Below are positions 2,454-11,807 of a DNA stretch of 28,489 bases, in pieces. The translations under genes and the position numbers were made by a program. Source of the stretch: a virus. The notes below the pieces were generated by a model. It was not told where the DNA came from and made no database searches. It saw only the letters and a program-made list of their open reading frames with translations. Every line of letters begins with the position of its first letter. Within the stretch, counting starts at the first letter, position 1. Location of the stretch: IMG/VR virus record IMGVR_UViG_3300032287_000815, positions 1 to 28,489 of that record. The stretch is one strand, 5' to 3'.

Positions 2454-3683
2454 TTATGCCAAAGCGTGACCGAATCTTTTCGGCGCAATTGGCTCGTGCT
2501 CTTTGTTGATAGGGAATAAGAACTGTATAGCGTAGGTCAACGCATCAAACATGTGGTCAAATCCACTATCCTTGTCTGGAATCTGTGTTCCTTCTTTATA
2601 ACAAAACTGTTGCAAACTTTTAATAGTATGTTTGCACTTTGGATCTACATAGAATCTAGTTGTGTTATTGTCGCGCAAAAAGAACAAACTATTTGCCGCA
2701 TTGATCCTATCTTTGACCTGCGGGTGTTGTCTATGATATCTAACGGTAAATCCAGCATTTTCTAATAGTTTAATGTCAGTGTTTCCATTTGCACTTGTTT
2801 TGCGTTGAACGCCTGCTGGATCTGGAAATATCTGTATAGGATTTCTAGGATATCTATTACGGATCTCATCAATTAGTTCATTAGTATTACTACTATAGAG
2901 AACAATTTCATCTATACAATGTAATCCATCTCGGGTGCGTCGCATTACTGTGCATGACATTGGATTAACGTTGAAGTCAGTGCCTAAGATCAATGTTTCT
3001 GTTGGGCTTATAGGATCTGCAGGCTTAATGTTATGTGTGCCAAATGCGTAAGCAATGATACCTGAGAAGTTTTCAAAAGTAGCAAGAAACTCTTGACTGA
3101 ATGTTCTAGCATCTAAGTCTTCACGGGCTTGAGCAACTTCTTCTTCAGGAACATTGCCACCATCAATTGTTGTAAATTGAAAACTCATCCAGTTGCTTAA
3201 TCTAGTATAATTGTCATACAAATCTTTGAACCAGTTCATACCTTTTGGTGTGCCTAAGAATAGCGCATGTCCACCTGTGTCTGCTAATGTTGGGCGTAAT
3301 ACTTCATACCACGCTTCTTTGTCAATGTCTGCTGCCTCATCCAAACAGATAAAATTTAATCCTACTCCACGTAAACTGTCATAATTGTCAGCACCACGCA
3401 AACTTATTTCACTGCCATTAACTAGTTCTAATGTTAAGTCTTGCTCATTGACTTTCTTTACCCAGTTTAGATTAATAAGTTTCTTTTTAATTTTCTTCCA
3501 CAAAATCTGTTTAGCCATGCGATAGGTTGGCGCAACATACCAAACACGCTGATCTGGCTTTGAGGCATATTTGGCAAGTTCTCGTAGTGCTAGATGTGTC
3601 TTACCAAATCTACGACCGCAGACTGCTACGCGAAAACGCATAGGACAATCTGCAATCATGCGTTGTGCTTTACTTAAAGCCAT
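2454..3683 (-). CDS. terL: Terminase large subunit
   Basis: A 409-residue DNA-packaging motor with both expected domains. The N-terminal ATPase has Walker A GRRFGKT at residues 23-29, the adenine-side YVAPTYRMA segment at about 49-57, Walker B FICLDEA at 111-117 with catalytic Glu116, and coupling motif FLGTPKG at 142-148. The C-terminal RNase H-like nuclease has acidic residues in GTDFN (Asp236), IFPDPA (Asp288) and DHMFDALTYA (Asp377/Asp380). The length is at the short end for the family but no motif is missing. The start ATG overlaps the stop of the methyltransferase gene by one base (TAATG), so translation is probably coupled. It works with the small subunit encoded two genes upstream. 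Confidence 0.95.
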   Translation of the reverse strand: MALSKAQRMIADCPMRFRVAVCGRRFGKTHLALRELAKYASKPDQRVWYVAPTYRMAKQILWKKIKKKLINLNWVKKVNEQDLTLELVNGSEISLRGADNYDSLRGVGLNFICLDEAADIDKEAWYEVLRPTLADTGGHALFLGTPKGMNWFKDLYDNYTRLSNWMSFQFTTIDGGNVPEEEVAQAREDLDARTFSQEFLATFENFSGIIAYAFGTHNIKPADPISPTETLILGTDFNVNPMSCTVMRRTRDGLHCIDEIVLYSSNTNELIDEIRNRYPRNPIQIFPDPAGVQRKTSANGNTDIKLLENAGFTVRYHRQHPQVKDRINAANSLFFLRDNNTTRFYVDPKCKHTIKSLQQFCYKEGTQIPDKDSGFDHMFDALTYAIQFLFPINKEHEPIAPKRFGHALA

Positions 3684-4513
3684 TAGACAAATAGTTCCTT
3701 AAACGCTGTTTCTTCTTTGTTCCACGCTTCAATGCGAGTCTTGGCTATTTCTACATACTTTGGATCAAGTTCTATGCCCACATACTCACAGTCTAATTCC
3801 ACTGCGGCACAGCCTGTTGATCCTGATCCGTTGAATGGATCTAATACACGACCCCCTGGAGGTGTAACTAACTTAATCAAATACTTCATCAACGCTATTG
3901 GTTTGACTGTGGGATGATTATTGCCAACATTACCTGTTCTAGCATCTAATCCAACTGCGTATCTTTTACCTGAATCATCAAAAGCACCTTGTTGCTTGCC
4001 AAACATTGCAGGAGGTATTTCATGTCCAATATGTCTTTCTTTAGAACTAACTTTGGGATTATAGAAATACTTTTGATATGGTTGTTCTATATCACCTAAA
4101 ACATTACTGGGATATCTTCCATTTACAGTAGTATCTGTAATGTTTAGATAAGTTTTACCTGCTTTCTTAGCCATACATATAGGTTCGTGTTGTGGCTTTA
4201 AGTGTGTAGTGCTTTTAGGAAATCCATTACTTTGTAACCACATTATTTGATCACGGATCTCAAAGCCTGCTTGCTCTAGAGTAATAGCAAGATGATGATA
4301 TGTTCTGGCTGCACTAAACGCTAATATATGTCCTCCAGGCTTTAACACTCTTAAACACTCTTGATATGTTTCTAGTGCTCCTGTGTTTGCATCCCAACTT
4401 TTACCTAAAAAGTCAATGCCGTAGGGCGGATCTGTGACAACGCTGTCAAAGTGATTATCGGGGAATGCCTTAAGGACATCTATATTATTACCTTGTAAAA
4501 CTTGATATTTCAT
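3683..4513 (-). CDS. DNA adenine/cytosine-N4 methyltransferase, beta class
   Basis: A 276-residue S-adenosylmethionine-dependent DNA methyltransferase of the N6-adenine/N4-cytosine type (PF01555-like). Catalytic motif IV DPPYG is at residues 28-32. HPTVKP at 200-205 and the SAM-binding motif I DPFNGSGST at 225-233, followed by GIELD at 246-250, lie near the C terminus. The order motif IV then motif I marks the beta class. No restriction enzyme is next to it, so it looks like an orphan enzyme, probably for protection against host restriction or for marking phage DNA. The recognition site cannot be read from sequence. It sits between small and large terminase genes, overlapping both (ATGA upstream, TAATG downstream), so it is made together with the packaging machinery. 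Confidence 0.92.
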   Translation of the reverse strand: MKYQVLQGNNIDVLKAFPDNHFDSVVTDPPYGIDFLGKSWDANTGALETYQECLRVLKPGGHILAFSAARTYHHLAITLEQAGFEIRDQIMWLQSNGFPKSTTHLKPQHEPICMAKKAGKTYLNITDTTVNGRYPSNVLGDIEQPYQKYFYNPKVSSKERHIGHEIPPAMFGKQQGAFDDSGKRYAVGLDARTGNVGNNHPTVKPIALMKYLIKLVTPPGGRVLDPFNGSGSTGCAAVELDCEYVGIELDPKYVEIAKTRIEAWNKEETAFKELFV

Positions 4514-7303: not shown

Positions 7304-7662
7304 TCTAAGACCTCTGCCAATCTATCTATAACTTCTTGTTGGTCTTCTGTGGTATATACTATTTTAACTTTACTGTCTGCGTTGATTAAGCGCTCACTGA
7401 CATTCCAGTGCTTGACCCAACGTGTTGCAATCTCGCCATCTTTGGTTTTGTATTTTAGGTTATCTACGATAATACCAAAGTTCTTATCTTGTAAATCTAT
7501 AATGTCCTGCCAAAAGACATAGTTTTTATTACTGGGATCTACATAAGTGTGGACTATCTCGCCTTTTGAGTTAGCCATAGTTATAACGGTCATAGTGCCG
7601 CCATATTTTGATTCTTGTTCTATTGTTTGTAAAACTACAAACGGTCCTTGTGCTTGCTTCAT
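7300..7662 (-). CDS. Phage protein, unknown
   Basis: A 120-residue soluble protein, the middle gene of the three-gene set controlled by the promoter at 8059-8088. Both ends overlap neighbours by four bases (ATGA-type). Sequence features include an N-terminal beta-rich part (GPFVVLQTIEQESKYGGTMT, TMANSKGEIVHTYVDP) and a C-terminal acidic helix (EDQQEVIDRLAEVLE). The pattern of strands with GEIVHTYVD is reminiscent of small OB-like folds, but that is only an impression. No family recognised. Confidence 0.7.
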   Translation of the reverse strand: MKQAQGPFVVLQTIEQESKYGGTMTVITMANSKGEIVHTYVDPSNKNYVFWQDIIDLQDKNFGIIVDNLKYKTKDGEIATRWVKHWNVSERLINADSKVKIVYTTEDQQEVIDRLAEVLE

Positions 7663-8027
7663 ACAGTCTCCTTAATACCATTATTCATAAACTTTACCAA
7701 CGGATCAATCTTAAAGTATAACTTTGTTATTGGTAAACCTAGGGGAGATTTTAATACCCGACCATTTATACTCAATGTTTCCCAAAATGTATTATCATTA
7801 CAGGGAGTAATAGGTGCTCTGGTATTTGTTTGTTGATATTCAGTGATTTGTTCTGGCGTTGTATTGCGCTTAATGGTAATCTTATCGCCTTGAACAGCAA
7901 CGACTTCGCCCATGTAATCTTCGCAGACTCCAACTGCCAATGTTGTATATAGATTAACGGCTAATGCTCCTACGATTGGCTCTATGTCCAATTCTAATTC
8001 ATCTACTATTGGTAATATGTTTGTCAT
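7659..8027 (-). CDS. Phage protein, unknown; first gene of a three-gene operon
   Basis: A 122-residue acidic-to-neutral protein. ATG at 8027 is preceded by AAAGGAGACC, an excellent ribosome binding site, and by a sigma70-type promoter with a palindrome on its -10 element (8051-8088). The N terminus is acidic (IVDELELDIEPIV), the middle contains a strand-rich portion (YMGEVVAVQGDKITIKRN), and the C terminus reads KLYFKIDPLVKFMNN. This C-terminal motif recurs in an open but start-less frame just upstream (8146-8271), suggesting an old partial duplication. Function unknown; the separate promoter suggests regulation apart from the late genes. Confidence 0.75.
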   Translation of the reverse strand: MTNILPIVDELELDIEPIVGALAVNLYTTLAVGVCEDYMGEVVAVQGDKITIKRNTTPEQITEYQQTNTRAPITPCNDNTFWETLSINGRVLKSPLGLPITKLYFKIDPLVKFMNNGIKETV

Positions 8028-8050
8028 TTAGGTCTCCTTTGTTATTTGCC

Positions 8051-8088
8051 TATGCTATATTATAGCATAAAGTATTTATCTAAGTCAA
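8051..8088 (-). promoter_or_regulatory. Promoter with palindromic operator for the 8027-6839 operon
   Basis: On the minus strand, -35 TTGACT (8083-8088) and -10 TATAAT (8059-8064) are 18 bp apart. The -10 is the centre of a perfect 9-bp-arm palindrome at 8051-8069 (TATGCTATA, one base, TATAGCATA). A protein bound there would block RNA polymerase directly. The start codon lies about 30 bases downstream. Confidence 0.7.
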
Positions 8089-8936: not shown

Positions 8937-9197
8937 TTAGTTTCCTGAGCAATAAACGATTCTAACTGCGTCATAGTCGCTGACATACTTGGCTAACTCG
9001 CCTTGACCTTTTCTGTGATAGTGCATTTGAACTGCCATGCGGCTAGTGTTCACCGCGGTGGTGTCCCAACGATGTTTGTCCATACATTGTTGTTCTGCTG
9101 AACTTACAACTGGAGTTGACTTTTTTGGTGTTTCATCGCCACCGCAGGCAACAATAGCAACGCCAATAACCAAACCTGCTAAAACTAATTTAATCAT
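8937..9197 (-). CDS. Phage-encoded lipoprotein
   Basis: An 86-residue protein with a classic lipoprotein signal: basic start MIKL, hydrophobic core to residue 17, and lipobox I15-V16-A17-C18. The residue after the lipidated Cys is Gly, not Asp, so export to the inner face of the outer membrane is expected in a Gram-negative host. A Thr/Pro/Ser linker (23-34) follows, then a small mature domain with two Cys (38 and 83) that could form one disulfide. RBS AGAGGAC lies before ATG. It is the first gene of an operon with its own near-consensus promoter and palindromic operator. Such solitary lipoproteins in phages often block receptors or DNA entry (for example T5 Llp). An Rz1-like spanin is less likely: it is not Pro-rich and has no Rz partner. 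Confidence 0.8.
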   Translation of the reverse strand: MIKLVLAGLVIGVAIVACGGDETPKKSTPVVSSAEQQCMDKHRWDTTAVNTSRMAVQMHYHRKGQGELAKYVSDYDAVRIVYCSGN

Positions 9198-9235
9198 AAT
9201 GTCCTCTGTGTGTGTGTTAAAGTGTTATGTTCTAC

Positions 9236-9278
9236 GCTGAACATAGTGTATTATACTATGTTCAGCAATTTAAGTCAA
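9236..9278 (-). promoter_or_regulatory. Promoter and palindromic operator for the lipoprotein operon
   Basis: Minus strand: -35 TTGACT (9273-9278), 17-bp spacer, -10 TATAAT (9250-9255). A perfect 12-bp-arm palindrome (GCTGAACATAGT, 7-base spacer) spans 9236-9266 and is centred on the -10. The -35 begins directly after the stop codon of the upstream gene. The same operator recurs at 10355-10385. Confidence 0.8.
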
Positions 9279-9279
9279 T

Positions 9280-9717
9280 TTACGCGGCTAAAGCAAGATC
9301 CGCATAATCATTGTAATCTAACCAAGTAGACCAATCTTCGCAGTCTATTTTAGAACGGACTTGAATTTTACTATATTGGTCATAGTCGTTAATCCAAGAT
9401 TTTTTGGAATAGTCTGGATCTTGTTCGCAGTTAAAGAGAACAGCCTTGATTTTTGGTAAATCTTTTGCTGGGTCCATACTGTAATATGTAAGACCAAGAC
9501 TGGCTTCTCCATAGAGACCTAATGAATCGGTATCACTGAATTGGATACCATCTACCATTACCATTTGAACTGGTAGCATTCGGGCTTTGGCTAACTTTGC
9601 CATTACCAAAGCACAATCTTGTGTGCCTCCAAGACCTCTAAAAAATACTTGTAATTCAATTTTTTGTGCTTCTTTTTTAACACCCCAAGTGTGTCCTAAA
9701 TTAAATAGATTTGCCAT
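9280..9717 (-). CDS. Phage protein under its own consensus promoter, unknown
   Basis: A 145-residue soluble protein with RBS AGGAG eight bases before ATG. It starts MANLFNLGHTWGVKKEAQKI and has a beta-rich character (IELQVFFRGLGGTQDC; PVQMVMVDGIQFSDTDSLGL) with an acidic C-terminal half containing many Asp, Tyr and Trp (DPDYSKKSWINDYDQYSK; CEDWSTWLDYNDYADLALAA). No known motif. It is transcribed from a perfect consensus promoter (9781-9809) that carries its own palindrome near the start site, so high but regulated expression is expected. Acidic, aromatic composition resembles DNA-mimic proteins only loosely; function unknown. Confidence 0.75.
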   Translation of the reverse strand: MANLFNLGHTWGVKKEAQKIELQVFFRGLGGTQDCALVMAKLAKARMLPVQMVMVDGIQFSDTDSLGLYGEASLGLTYYSMDPAKDLPKIKAVLFNCEQDPDYSKKSWINDYDQYSKIQVRSKIDCEDWSTWLDYNDYADLALAA

Positions 9718-9746
9718 TTTGTAATCTCCTGATTAAAGTTAAGTAA

Positions 9747-9809
9747 TACAGGACAGCACCTTACTGCCCTGTATGTATCTATTATACTACCAAAGTTATT
9801 TTGTGTCAA
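9747..9809 (-). promoter_or_regulatory. Perfect-consensus sigma70 promoter with downstream palindrome
   Basis: Minus strand: TTGACA (9804-9809), exactly 17 bp, TATAAT (9781-9786), a full match to the sigma70 consensus. Just downstream, over the expected transcript start and leader, lies an inverted repeat at 9747-9756/9764-9773 (TACAGGGCAG against CTGTCCTGTA, one mismatch, 7-base spacer). This palindrome differs in sequence from the lipoprotein operator but has the same 7-base spacer. Confidence 0.85.
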
Positions 9810-10259
9810 TTAAACGAACAAGCCTGCTTTTTTGGCTTTAGCCACTGCGTCTTTGCCAGTAAATACGAATTGGCTAATATCCAATTTGCTTACAGGAAGA
9901 CCAAGTTCGTGTTGAATGTTCATCTCAACGGTGCAGGCTTCTAACAAACCATTAAAGCCTTCCCAAGCGGCTTCTTTAACTTGGGCAATACTGGCAACAC
10001 CAGTGCGAACCAAATTCAATCCAACATAACAGGCTTTTTCAATACGGTCTCTATCAGCCTGCTCATATGCTTTCATAAAGTCATCACCATCAAGGGTGCT
10101 AACAATATTTTCCATATACTTCATATATGATTCTTGATCTTCTTTGATCATAGCAACATATATTGGACGCATAGCAGACCAAGCGTCGCTATGTTCTTTT
10201 TTTGGACCTGTTGCTTTAAGAGCATCAATCTCTGCTTTGCGTTGTTTTGCCTGTCCCAT
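9810..10259 (-). CDS. MGQAKQRKAEI-type protein, unknown
   Basis: A 149-residue mainly helical protein with RBS AGGAG before ATG. The N terminus MGQAKQRKAEIDALKA is a recurring leader in otherwise diverse bacterial and phage hypothetical proteins. The rest is amphipathic helix (YVAMIKEDQESYMKYMENIV; DRIEKACYVGLNLVRTG; KEAAWEGFNGLLEACTVEMN) ending in TGKDAVAKAKKAGLFV. No membrane segment or catalytic motif is visible. Two promoters lie upstream, one of them bearing the same operator as the lipoprotein operon, so the two are probably co-regulated. Confidence 0.75.
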   Translation of the reverse strand: MGQAKQRKAEIDALKATGPKKEHSDAWSAMRPIYVAMIKEDQESYMKYMENIVSTLDGDDFMKAYEQADRDRIEKACYVGLNLVRTGVASIAQVKEAAWEGFNGLLEACTVEMNIQHELGLPVSKLDISQFVFTGKDAVAKAKKAGLFV

Positions 10260-10292
10260 TTGTAAACTCCTGTTTAGTGTATGTAAGTGTAT

Positions 10293-10321
10293 ATTATAGC
10301 ACCAAAATCATTTAATGTCAA
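10293..10321 (-). promoter_or_regulatory. Proximal sigma70 promoter of the 149-residue gene
   Basis: Minus strand TTGACA (10316-10321), 17 bp, TATAAT (10293-10298), a perfect consensus. The leader downstream contains the direct repeat TACACT-TACA-TACACT but no clear palindrome, so this promoter may be constitutive. Confidence 0.8.
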
Positions 10322-10354
10322 TTAATGCTATTTGCCTTATGAACAGCGTTTTCT

Positions 10355-10397
10355 GCTGAACATAGTGTATTATACTATGTCCAGCATTTTGTGTCAA
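10355..10397 (-). promoter_or_regulatory. Distal promoter with second copy of the lipoprotein operator
   Basis: Minus strand TTGACA (10392-10397), 17 bp, TATAAT (10369-10374), perfect consensus. The palindrome at 10355-10366/10374-10385 is the same as at 9236-9266 except for one base in one arm. It lies about 110 bases upstream of the 149-residue gene, behind which the proximal promoter is placed in tandem. Confidence 0.8.
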
Positions 10398-10404
10398 TTA
10401 ACTG

Positions 10405-10593
10405 TTATTTTGCAACAACTTGACGGAAGTGCTCAAGTTCTTCAACAACGGTGTTAAACGACAAACTGTCATCAACATCGTAATAACAAGCAAGTCTATG
10501 CAACTCTTTGATCATGATCTCAACTTTAATGCTGGGATGTGCTCTAGCAAAGTCGTTGGTGAAAAAAGTTTTTTGTTTAGTAATAGTAGTCAT
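10405..10593 (-). CDS. Small phage protein, unknown
   Basis: A 62-residue protein. ATG at 10593 (MTTITKQKTFFTND) is preferred over an in-frame ATG at 10635 because the latter would leave almost no leader after the promoter at 10654-10682 and has no ribosome binding site; GAGAG-type purines precede the chosen start. The protein has NDFARAHPSIKVEIMIKELHRLACYYD and ends VVEELEHFRQVVAK, probably two helices. No family recognised. It lies behind two tandem promoters and shares its 5' leader with the small genes at 11.0-11.7 kb. Confidence 0.65.
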   Translation of the reverse strand: MTTITKQKTFFTNDFARAHPSIKVEIMIKELHRLACYYDVDDSLSFNTVVEELEHFRQVVAK

Positions 10594-10653
10594 CTCTAAC
10601 TCTCTTTCTGTGTGTGTAAAAATTTGTTGTTGCACTATTGCTTCAACACTTGT

Positions 10654-10696
10654 AGTATAACATATTTGCCAATTTGTGCCGATTATTTTGTGTCAA
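10654..10696 (-). promoter_or_regulatory. Promoter with tandem -35-like elements
   Basis: Minus strand -10 TATACT (10654-10659) with -35 TCGGCA (10677-10682) at 17 bp. A second element, TTGACACAAA (TTGACA at 10691-10696), lies exactly 14 bp further upstream. The transcribed leader matches the leader of the gene at 11477-11647, so this is a fourth member of that promoter-leader family. Confidence 0.6.
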
Positions 10697-10782
10697 TTTA
10701 TTTTTGCATGTTGTCGTTGTGCCACAACTTACAAATTTAACAAACTTGACACAAATTGTCTTTTCTGCTTGCTACAGTATCT

Positions 10783-10826
10783 ATTATACACTCACCAACC
10801 ATTTTGTGCCAATTTATTTGTGTCAA
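10783..10826 (-). promoter_or_regulatory. Promoter with the same tandem -35-like layout
   Basis: Minus strand -10 TATAAT (10783-10788), 18 bp, -35 TTGGCA (10807-10812), and TTGACACAAA with TTGACA at 10821-10826, again 14 bp upstream. It faces the gene at 10405-10593 from about 190 bases away. The stretch 10594-10959 holds only these two promoters, an AT-rich leader and the terminator at 10908-10937. Confidence 0.65.
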
Positions 10827-10907
10827 TTTTTGACTTAATCAAAGGGTTATTTTGTGGTTTTTTAACAACAAGCACACTAGTAGTAAAAAGTATTACATTT
10901 TGACCAC

Positions 10908-10937
10908 AAAAAAAGTGCTACATTTTGTAGCACTTTT
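10908..10937. terminator. Bidirectional intrinsic terminator after the 37-residue gene
   Basis: A perfect 11-bp stem (AAAAGTGCTAC at 10911-10921, GTAGCACTTTT at 10927-10937) with a five-base loop; the minus-strand transcript ends in seven Us. It closes the block of three leader-cassette genes. The stem contains GTGCTACA/TGTAGCAC, also found in the palindromes of those leaders. Confidence 0.85.
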
Positions 10938-10959
10938 GAGCACATTTTTAAGTTAGCGT

Positions 10960-11073
10960 TTATTTTCCCGTTTGTAGTTTAATAAGTGCTGTAAGTTTAG
11001 CAATTAACTCGGGTGTTAGCACCCAGTTATTTTGTTTTGCTAACTGATCAACTTGCTGTTTAATATTTTGCAT
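10960..11073 (-). CDS. 37-residue small protein with leader cassette
   Basis: A very short gene starting MQNIKQQVDQLAKQ and ending LTALIKLQTGK. ATG at 11073 has AGGGAC eight bases upstream, placed after the conserved leader (copy 1). The protein is a probable amphipathic helix pair (Gln/Lys/Leu-rich, one Trp). An intrinsic terminator follows 22 bases after the stop. A GGGTG/CACCC hairpin lies within the coding sequence. The promoter, RBS and terminator make it convincing despite its size; function unknown. Confidence 0.65.
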   Translation of the reverse strand: MQNIKQQVDQLAKQNNWVLTPELIAKLTALIKLQTGK

Positions 11074-11102
11074 TTTTAAGTCCCTATGTGTTATGTTGTA
11101 AG

Positions 11103-11151
11103 CACTATGCTACAACAAATACATTGTAGCATAGTGGCCATTTACGGTCTA
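11103..11151 (-). promoter_or_regulatory. Promoter-leader cassette, copy 1
   Basis: Minus strand -35 TAGACC (11146-11151), 17 bp, -10 TACAAT (11123-11128). The -10 lies in a perfect 13-bp-arm palindrome (CACTATGCTACAA, 8-base spacer) at 11103-11136. The cassette is shared with copies 2 and 3 almost base for base, including the flanking AAATAGA and AAATGGCC. Confidence 0.65.
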
Positions 11152-11152
11152 T

Positions 11153-11386
11153 TTAATTTACTACAGTATAGTAGTCGGTGTCCATAAGAAGCCAATACAA
11201 GTTTTCCGTAGGACCTGTGTCCTTGGGATAGTCCTGCGGCATTTGGTCCATTAAATTAAACCAATGTTGGTCGCTACAACGACCAAATGCCAGTTGGCAT
11301 TTTTTGCTCCAAGTTAGCCAGGATTTTGGCACATTATAAATTTGACCGCTATCCAGGTCTTTAATATTAACAACTACTTTTTGCAT
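11153..11386 (-). CDS. Small phage protein, unknown
   Basis: A 77-residue protein. ATG at 11386 (MQKVVVNIKDLDSG) is chosen because AAGGAAC lies eight bases upstream; the in-frame ATG 39 bases earlier falls inside the conserved leader and lacks a ribosome binding site. Sequence features: a short beta start (KVVVNIKDL), W-rich middle (SWLTWSKKCQLAFGRC; DQHWFNLMDQ) and C-terminal NLYWLLMDTDYYTVVN. Two Cys are seven residues apart, but no zinc motif is apparent. It has its own promoter-leader cassette (copy 2). Function unknown. Confidence 0.7.
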   Translation of the reverse strand: MQKVVVNIKDLDSGQIYNVPKSWLTWSKKCQLAFGRCSDQHWFNLMDQMPQDYPKDTGPTENLYWLLMDTDYYTVVN

Positions 11387-11411
11387 TTTAAGTTCCTTTG
11401 TATAAATGCTG

Positions 11412-11472
11412 TTTGTTGTAAGCACTATTGCTACAACAAATACATTGTAGCATAGTGGCCATTTAAGGTCTA
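11412..11472 (-). promoter_or_regulatory. Promoter-leader cassette, copy 2
   Basis: Minus strand -35 TAGACC (11467-11472), 17 bp, -10 TACAAT (11444-11449), identical core to copy 1. Downstream of the start, a 9-bp-arm inverted repeat (TTTGTTGTA/TACAACAAA) spans 11412-11440. The palindrome seen on the -10 in copy 1 is present with one inserted A. Confidence 0.65.
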
Positions 11473-11476
11473 TTTG

Positions 11477-11647
11477 TTATTTTACTACTGTAAGTGTAGT
11501 TGTTAATTTGTTAAGTTGGCGTTGGTAATGCTTTAACCAACTAATACAAATTTGTTTTGCTTGCTCATCAGTTGCTACTGCTATAGCCCCAGTTAAGTTT
11601 TTAATAACTTCATTTAACATTGTAATTTGACCTTGTTTGGTGATCAT
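11477..11647 (-). CDS. Small helical protein, unknown
   Basis: A 56-residue protein beginning MITKQGQITMLNEV. ATG at 11647 is preferred over an ATG 12 bases upstream because GGGA lies before it. The body is predicted helix (NEVIKNLTGAIAVAT; EQAKQICISWLKHYQRQLNK) with a polar Thr-rich C terminus. No known domain. It has promoter-leader cassette copy 3 and lies directly after the terminator at 11775-11807, so it is the first gene of the cassette block. Confidence 0.65.
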   Translation of the reverse strand: MITKQGQITMLNEVIKNLTGAIAVATDEQAKQICISWLKHYQRQLNKLTTTLTVVK

Positions 11648-11670
11648 AATATATCCCATTTGTGTTATGC

Positions 11671-11725
11671 TGTAGCACTATTGCTACAACACAAGTAGTT
11701 TAACATAGAGGCCATTTAAGATCTA
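11671..11725 (-). promoter_or_regulatory. Promoter-leader cassette, copy 3 (divergent)
   Basis: Minus strand -35-like TAGATC (11720-11725), 17 bp, -10 TAAACT (11697-11702). Leader palindrome TGTAGC-AATAGT-GCTACA at 11671-11688. Sequence between -35 and -10 matches copies 1 and 2, while the -10 and leader match the promoter at 10654-10659 better, so it links the two subgroups. Confidence 0.55.
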
Positions 11726-11774
11726 TTTGTTTAACTACGACTAAAGTATTATGACCTATGCGAAAGTAGTAGGC

Positions 11775-11807
11775 GAAAAAAAGCCCCAAGTATTTCTACC
11801 CGGGGCT
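11775..11807 (-). terminator. Intrinsic terminator after the 250-residue gene
   Basis: Minus-strand hairpin AGCCCC (11802-11807) / GGGGCT (11782-11787) followed by at least seven Us. It marks the end of the late tail transcription unit. Confidence 0.8.

Follow-up and report, generated by a model that had tools for sequence, protein, structure and literature searches.

The locus considered here raises the question of why several very small and unrelated genes of one phage should each stand behind nearly the same promoter and leader, and what the repeated element does for them. The window analysed (the whole stretch of DNA, 28,489 bases) is an IMG/VR virus record whose recognised core genes, encoding terminase, portal, tape measure, and other tail and structural proteins, all lie on the minus strand. 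Relatives of its TerL protein are encoded in 41 loci, many of them 75-95% identical, and among named phages the closest TerL proteins (47-49%) come from Pelagibacter phages and from DSL-LC06, a related named genome of 29.8 kb. One 32.6-kb contig among the relatives has TerL close to both ends, which suggests a genome size near 30 kb. A near-DNA search against annotated phages gave no match, and no comparable cassette array was found in DSL-LC06 or in Pelagibacter phage HTVC026P (TerL 47-49%). The phage is tailed, with a genome of roughly 30 kb, and carries the cassette array in an accessory island that has the tail/holin genes on one side and terminase on the other. The flanking core is largely 80-98% identical in close relatives, and the island genes are mostly unique; in the close relative L050 the island is only about 1.1 kb. 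As a separate observation on this genome, a DNA methyltransferase gene (3683-4513) lies between the small and large terminase genes and is present in only 5 TerL relatives (L007, L008, L011, L028, L039), as a mobile or optional gene within the packaging module.

A preliminary description had reported four promoter-leader cassettes before small genes, and all four are present on the minus strand where it had placed them. Unit C (11477..11728) has a promoter with the -35 box TAGATC (11725-11720), 17 nt, and the -10 box TAAACT (11702-11697), followed by a 5' hairpin at 11691-11668 (UGUUGUAGC-AAUAGU-GCUACAGCA; -14.7 kcal/mol, z -3.1), a linker with the ribosome-binding site, and a gene of 55 amino acids (56 codons including the stop) at 11644-11477. 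Unit B (11153..11475) has TAGACC (11472-11467), 17 nt, and TACAAT (11449-11444) with TG ahead of the -10 box, then a 5' hairpin at 11438-11414, a ribosome-binding site and a 77-residue gene at 11386-11153. Unit A (10960..11154) repeats this order with TAGACC (11151-11146), 17 nt, TACAAT (11128-11123), a 5' hairpin at 11117-11094, a ribosome-binding site and a 37-residue gene at 11073-10960. In unit D (10405..10690), TCGGCA (10682-10677), 17 nt, and TATACT (10659-10654) precede an imperfect 5' hairpin at 10648-10625, which keeps the loop AAUAGU and is weak by energy alone (-6.8, z -0.8), and a 62-residue gene at 10593-10405. The hairpin starts exactly 6 nt past the -10 box in all four. The promoter boxes are thus as first described, except that the -10 box of unit C is weak, with 4 of 6 consensus bases.

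Repetition of the element is far beyond chance. An nhmmer profile of the four cassettes, which matches its own members by construction, recovers each at E 1e-22 to 1e-18, and when 81 bases of one copy alone served as the DNA query, the remaining three copies in the record were recovered at E 9e-25, 3e-14 and 9e-5. Outside the window, the best match of the profile is in a relative (1e-13), and weaker copies occur only in relatives (L041 twice and L029, with marginal matches in L019 and L010). A generic promoter scan at a loose cut-off gave 32 promoters against 31.6 in shuffles, so that the TAGACC cassettes are distinguished by repetition and leader structure and not by promoter score. The exact leader pattern GTTGTAGCAATAGTGCTWACARCA had no match in viral contigs, and an Rfam search matched no family.

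The four cassettes are one sequence subfamily of a broader set of units, and here the preliminary description was incomplete, having missed further same-family promoters in the window, matching 11/12 or 12/12 consensus bases, at 10397, 10321, 9809, 9278 and 8088, also before small genes. The unit of a 149-residue gene (9810..10397, minus strand; gene 10259-9810) has two 12/12 promoters, at 10397-10369 and 10321-10293. It is followed by minus-strand units for a 145-residue gene (9280..9809; 12/12 promoter 9809-9781, gene 9717-9280), an 86-residue gene (8937..9278; 11/12 promoter 9278-9250, gene 9197-8937) and a 122-residue gene (7659..8088; 11/12 promoter 8088-8059, gene 8027-7659), the last without a hairpin. 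Hairpins at the predicted transcription start (+1) are clear in the 9809 unit (9774-9746, minus strand, 13 pairs, z -4.1) and the 9278 unit (9244-9227, minus strand, AUGUUC-AGCGUA-GAACAU), and weaker at 10397. A further 11/12 promoter upstream of unit D (10812-10783) is followed by about 100 bases in which no gene is obvious (10690-10812), and may be what remains of a lost cassette. Intrinsic-terminator-like sites were found on the minus strand at 10911..10937, where a 12-pair stem and T run close unit A, and at 11782..11807, dividing the cassettes from an upstream operon (gene 12582-11830 and structural genes). None was found at the intergenic positions between C, B and A, or after D.

What kind of promoter this is can be read from the clade. 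With a threshold of at least 11 of 12 sigma70 consensus bases, which six promoters in the window reach, 39 of 47 promoters in the phage clade lie in accessory islands on the coding strand, against about 3.6 expected. Their consensus, TTGACAcaAATT-N-TATAATacatac, is near-consensus sigma70, with TAGACC/TACAAT in the flagged copies. The pattern TTGACAYAAAWT-N(9-13)-TAYAATACATAC was matched in 49 viral stretches, including several on 77-233 kb contigs that look unrelated to the clade, and in only 2 stretches among 84,980 prokaryote genomes. No prophage was found with TerL in these same genomes, and with the two promoter matches being stray ones no host was found. An extended early-type promoter, TTGACACAAATTGG...TATAATACATAC, is likewise common to the 30-kb clade and to apparently unrelated uncultured viruses of 77-233 kb (L130-L178), and is nearly absent from prokaryote genomes. 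A near-consensus sigma70 promoter common even to unrelated large viruses points to host RNA polymerase. At those promoters in the other, larger viruses, the leaders are short and hairpins at +1 are few and weak (3 of 35). The same promoter thus occurs almost without the hairpin, which identifies the hairpin as a separate, added element, and the idea that it is a mere part of the promoter was rejected.

The position of the hairpin is fixed relative to the promoter, with +1 predicted from the spacing to the -10 box. Among stems of at least 7 pairs, the 5' base peaks 6-8 nt past the -10 box (13, 23 and 16 stems, against 5-6 in shuffles; 23 against 5.6 at offset 7 alone) and the distribution is flat further off, and these counts overstate the number of independent events, the related sequences being not fully independent. 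The peak falls at the predicted +1, so that the stem-loop would form the very 5' end of the predicted transcript. By folding energies, a 5'-terminal hairpin is present in 21 of 39 units, compared with 4.1 in shuffles; when the list is widened to 51 units, the numbers with and without one at the cut-off used are 29 and 22, so the hairpin is not obligatory. Past it comes an unpaired linker, for example AACACACACAGAGGA, and then the start codon.

Covariation was evaluated in the subfamily with an AAUARY loop, using eight sequences chosen by hand. Because these were also centred by hand on the loop, the proportion of cells that are paired (88.9%, against 51% when shuffled) leans towards structure, and the double changes are the stronger part: 28 double-change cells compared with 10.4, at 8 of the 9 stem pairs. 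The covariation score is 0.98, against 0.25 for shuffled sequences and at most 0.32 for slid structures. Stem sequences vary freely with compensation, and G-U pairs are tolerated. It could be supposed that A, B and C are only one promoter copied locally in tandem, with a hairpin that has no function, and the A and B promoters, which adjoin one another and are 97% identical, would suit such an origin. However, in many phages hairpins of differing sequence are found at this same offset, more often than shuffles predict, and mere duplication is disfavoured because the stems covary; as a full explanation it is highly improbable.

The same inverted repeats might instead be DNA operators, at which a phage repressor or activator bound over the -10 box and +1 would switch the small genes jointly, and the preliminary description had likewise suggested control by one regulator. 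Some units, namely A, B, 9278, 10397 and relatives, do have long dyads spanning the -10 box: a perfect 13-bp CACTATGCTACAA..TTGTAGCATAGTG in unit A (11136-11103) that is imperfect in B, and a GCTGAACATAG..CTATGTTCAGC dyad in the 9278 unit (9266-9236) and the 10397 unit, where it is near-perfect at the first promoter of the 149-residue gene (10385-10355). Complementarity of at least 6 nt between spacer and leader is also found in 8 of 29 units, compared with 2.6 by permutation (p about 0.001). Within one genome, however, the dyad sequences differ from unit to unit, and most units, C, D and 9809 among them, have no dyad although the RNA hairpin persists; the freely changing, compensated stems with their G-U pairs also count against an operator. 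Of those window proteins that were scanned, none was recognised as a regulator. Joint control through operators is improbable, and the proposal of a single regulator is left unsupported, there being no operator sequence common to the units and the near-consensus sigma70 promoter pointing to the host enzyme.

The loops give a different kind of evidence. AAUAGU, AAUAAC or AAUAAU is kept while stems vary, and GCARU occurs as an apical motif in 16 of 34 cases, where shuffles give 5.4, an excess that pure protection of the message end does not need. The hairpin could then be a cis-acting RNA signal, acting in put-like antitermination or in translational control, with its apical loop GC-ARU(N)-GC addressed to RNA polymerase or an RNA-binding protein; the lack of a terminator between C, B and A means that read-through from each unit is possible. 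On the other hand, loops are not uniform (AAAA in L029:2951, GAAAYRGUUYG types, AGCGUA), terminator-like sites do stand at 10937-10911 and 11807-11782, and HK022 put consists of two adjacent stem-loops, unlike the single 5' hairpin per leader seen in folds here. A signal of this type is unlikely. A bolder proposal holds that the hairpins are a phage-specific class of RNA elements, variable in the stem but recognised by the apical GC-ARU loop, through which a trans-acting factor (RNA polymerase itself, or an RNA-binding protein of host or phage origin) would single out phage messages, and that phages use it as a universal socket for exchanging unrelated accessory genes; this is speculative and rather unlikely.

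The units have been reassorted with respect to the genes that they drive. Leaders (UTRs) that are 78-95% identical are followed by 30 codons at the random level (0.46-0.52, against 0.51), and conversely homologous genes (0.61-0.83) have UTRs at 0.45-0.53 identity; in these alignments the breakpoint between leader and gene falls at the start codon. The leader of the 9809 unit is 95% identical to one in L053 that drives an unrelated gene, and a third gene stands behind the same leader in L182. Two leaders were used to scan 2.9 million viral contigs. For ACAGGGCAGTAAGGTGCTGT, the scan recovered one contig that was already known and a new one in addition to the window copy; it always directly follows a -10 box, and the three genes behind it are unrelated. 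For ATGTTCAGCGNAGAACATAAC, five stretches outside the window were recovered, of which two were known and three new, and the genes behind this leader belong to at least 4 unrelated families. The 9278 hairpin has an identical copy before at least three other gene families. Within the window itself, the proteins of the four cassettes have no match to one another, and the earlier view that the control region has been multiplied while the coding cargo differs is borne out, as is that of a plug-in site, by this exchange of leaders and genes. The concern that relatives might lack the leaders or the small genes did not hold across the clade, since a search of related phages showed that other small genes there follow leaders of this kind; single close relatives, such as L050, are without the TGTTGTAGC version.

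Relatives of two of the cassette genes also stand behind hairpin cassettes. For the 55-residue gene of unit C, L029 has a homologue with 78% identity that immediately follows a related cassette, and for the 62-residue gene of unit D it has one (33%) at 4039-3887, encoded on the opposite strand and preceded by a hairpin cassette that is likewise inverted. Part of the L029 island (3454-4100) is inverted, with the 62-residue gene homologue and its hairpin leader opposing the other genes. Homologous small genes, including that of unit C, diverge mostly at third positions and are accordingly coding. The 77-residue gene of unit B had no homologue in the loci searched; as neither A nor B has a homologue, their coding status is read from the open reading frame and ribosome-binding site only. 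A protein search with the 55-residue gene gave no confirmed relatives, and PHROGs, Pfam and PADLOC gave only weak sub-threshold matches and no usable family for the window's cassette genes; for those of relatives, Pfam gave only weak matches. The host-interaction role that the preliminary description suggested for the small genes is accordingly a putative one. Two larger cassette genes, in the L055:12321 and L052:12041 units, contain a GxxGxGKS motif and by sequence look like P-loop/AAA ATPases, the former having only a weak Pfam match.

Together with the cassette anatomy, the fixed hairpin position, the stem covariation and the leader/gene reassortment, all seen in sequence comparisons, these findings favour (at a probability of about 0.6) a modular, mostly monocistronic cassette composed of a host-polymerase promoter, a 5'-terminal mRNA-stabilising hairpin, an unstructured linker with the ribosome-binding site, and an exchangeable gene. 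The free reshuffling of genes and promoter-leader units from one phage to another gives the unit the look of a plug-in expression cassette. Host RNA polymerase would read the strong sigma70-type promoter, probably early, and in more than half of units the message would begin within the hairpin, whose first base is the predicted +1. The 5'-terminal hairpin may then hinder 5'-end-dependent decay by the RppH/RNase E pathway, and the A/C-rich unpaired linker would leave the ribosome site free. A 5' hairpin is known to stabilise bla mRNA and to impede RppH (reviewed in PMC3997798), and T4 gene 32 mRNA is stabilised by a 5' hairpin according to work cited in PMC8948821. A newly acquired gene could in this way be kept highly expressed and independent of its neighbours, and the near-identical leaders may provide homology for gene swaps or cassette duplication. 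What emerges is a concrete and testable picture in which a phage would express newly acquired genes of unknown function at once, through a standard socket (promoter, 5' hairpin and ribosome site) whose exchange point is the start codon. With the leader signature, accessory and possibly host-takeover genes that lack a recognisable protein family could be found in uncultured phages, and the natural leader variants offer material for testing 5'-hairpin control of mRNA lifetime.

A literature search of incomplete coverage found no described phage array of this kind, and the nearest known systems each share a part of it. The start-associated sequences of cluster K mycobacteriophages (SAS), to which the preliminary description likened the cassettes, are a 13-bp GGGATAGGAGCCC motif at the start codon, and the extended form (ESAS) consists of 17-bp imperfect repeats in which departures in general give no support to pairing at the RNA level (Pope et al. 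2011, PMC3203893). Like these, the element here is a repeated control element with inverted repeats ahead of some small non-structural genes and is kept across related phages. Unlike them, it includes the promoter, and its repeat lies at +1 and covaries as an RNA hairpin; the SAS 13-mer has no match in the window with up to 2 mismatches, and the likeness stands as an analogy only. Phage morons are accessory genes with their own promoter and terminator, such as P22 pid, which has a weak promoter and a 174-nt leader (PMC8835761). The island genes resemble morons as accessory reading frames without homologues, predicted to be independently transcribed and placed beside structural operons: near-consensus promoters, strongly enriched in islands, stand ahead of single genes, and presence among close relatives is patchy, the island genes being mostly unique. 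In contrast to morons, they form arrays whose units have a conserved promoter-leader module in common and often no terminator of their own; in the window, not every gene has one. Stabiliser hairpins at the 5' terminus of mRNA are established for ompA, papA and T4 gene 32, with a stem-loop at or near the extreme 5' end and then an unpaired leader containing the ribosome-binding site, as here. Those are leaders of single genes, whereas the hairpin of this phage is repeated, exchangeable, and tied to a promoter and to changing cargo, and its stabilising role is a putative one. By analogy, then, the cassettes resemble morons and 5' stabiliser hairpins combined in their probable working, and SAS/ESAS in their layout.
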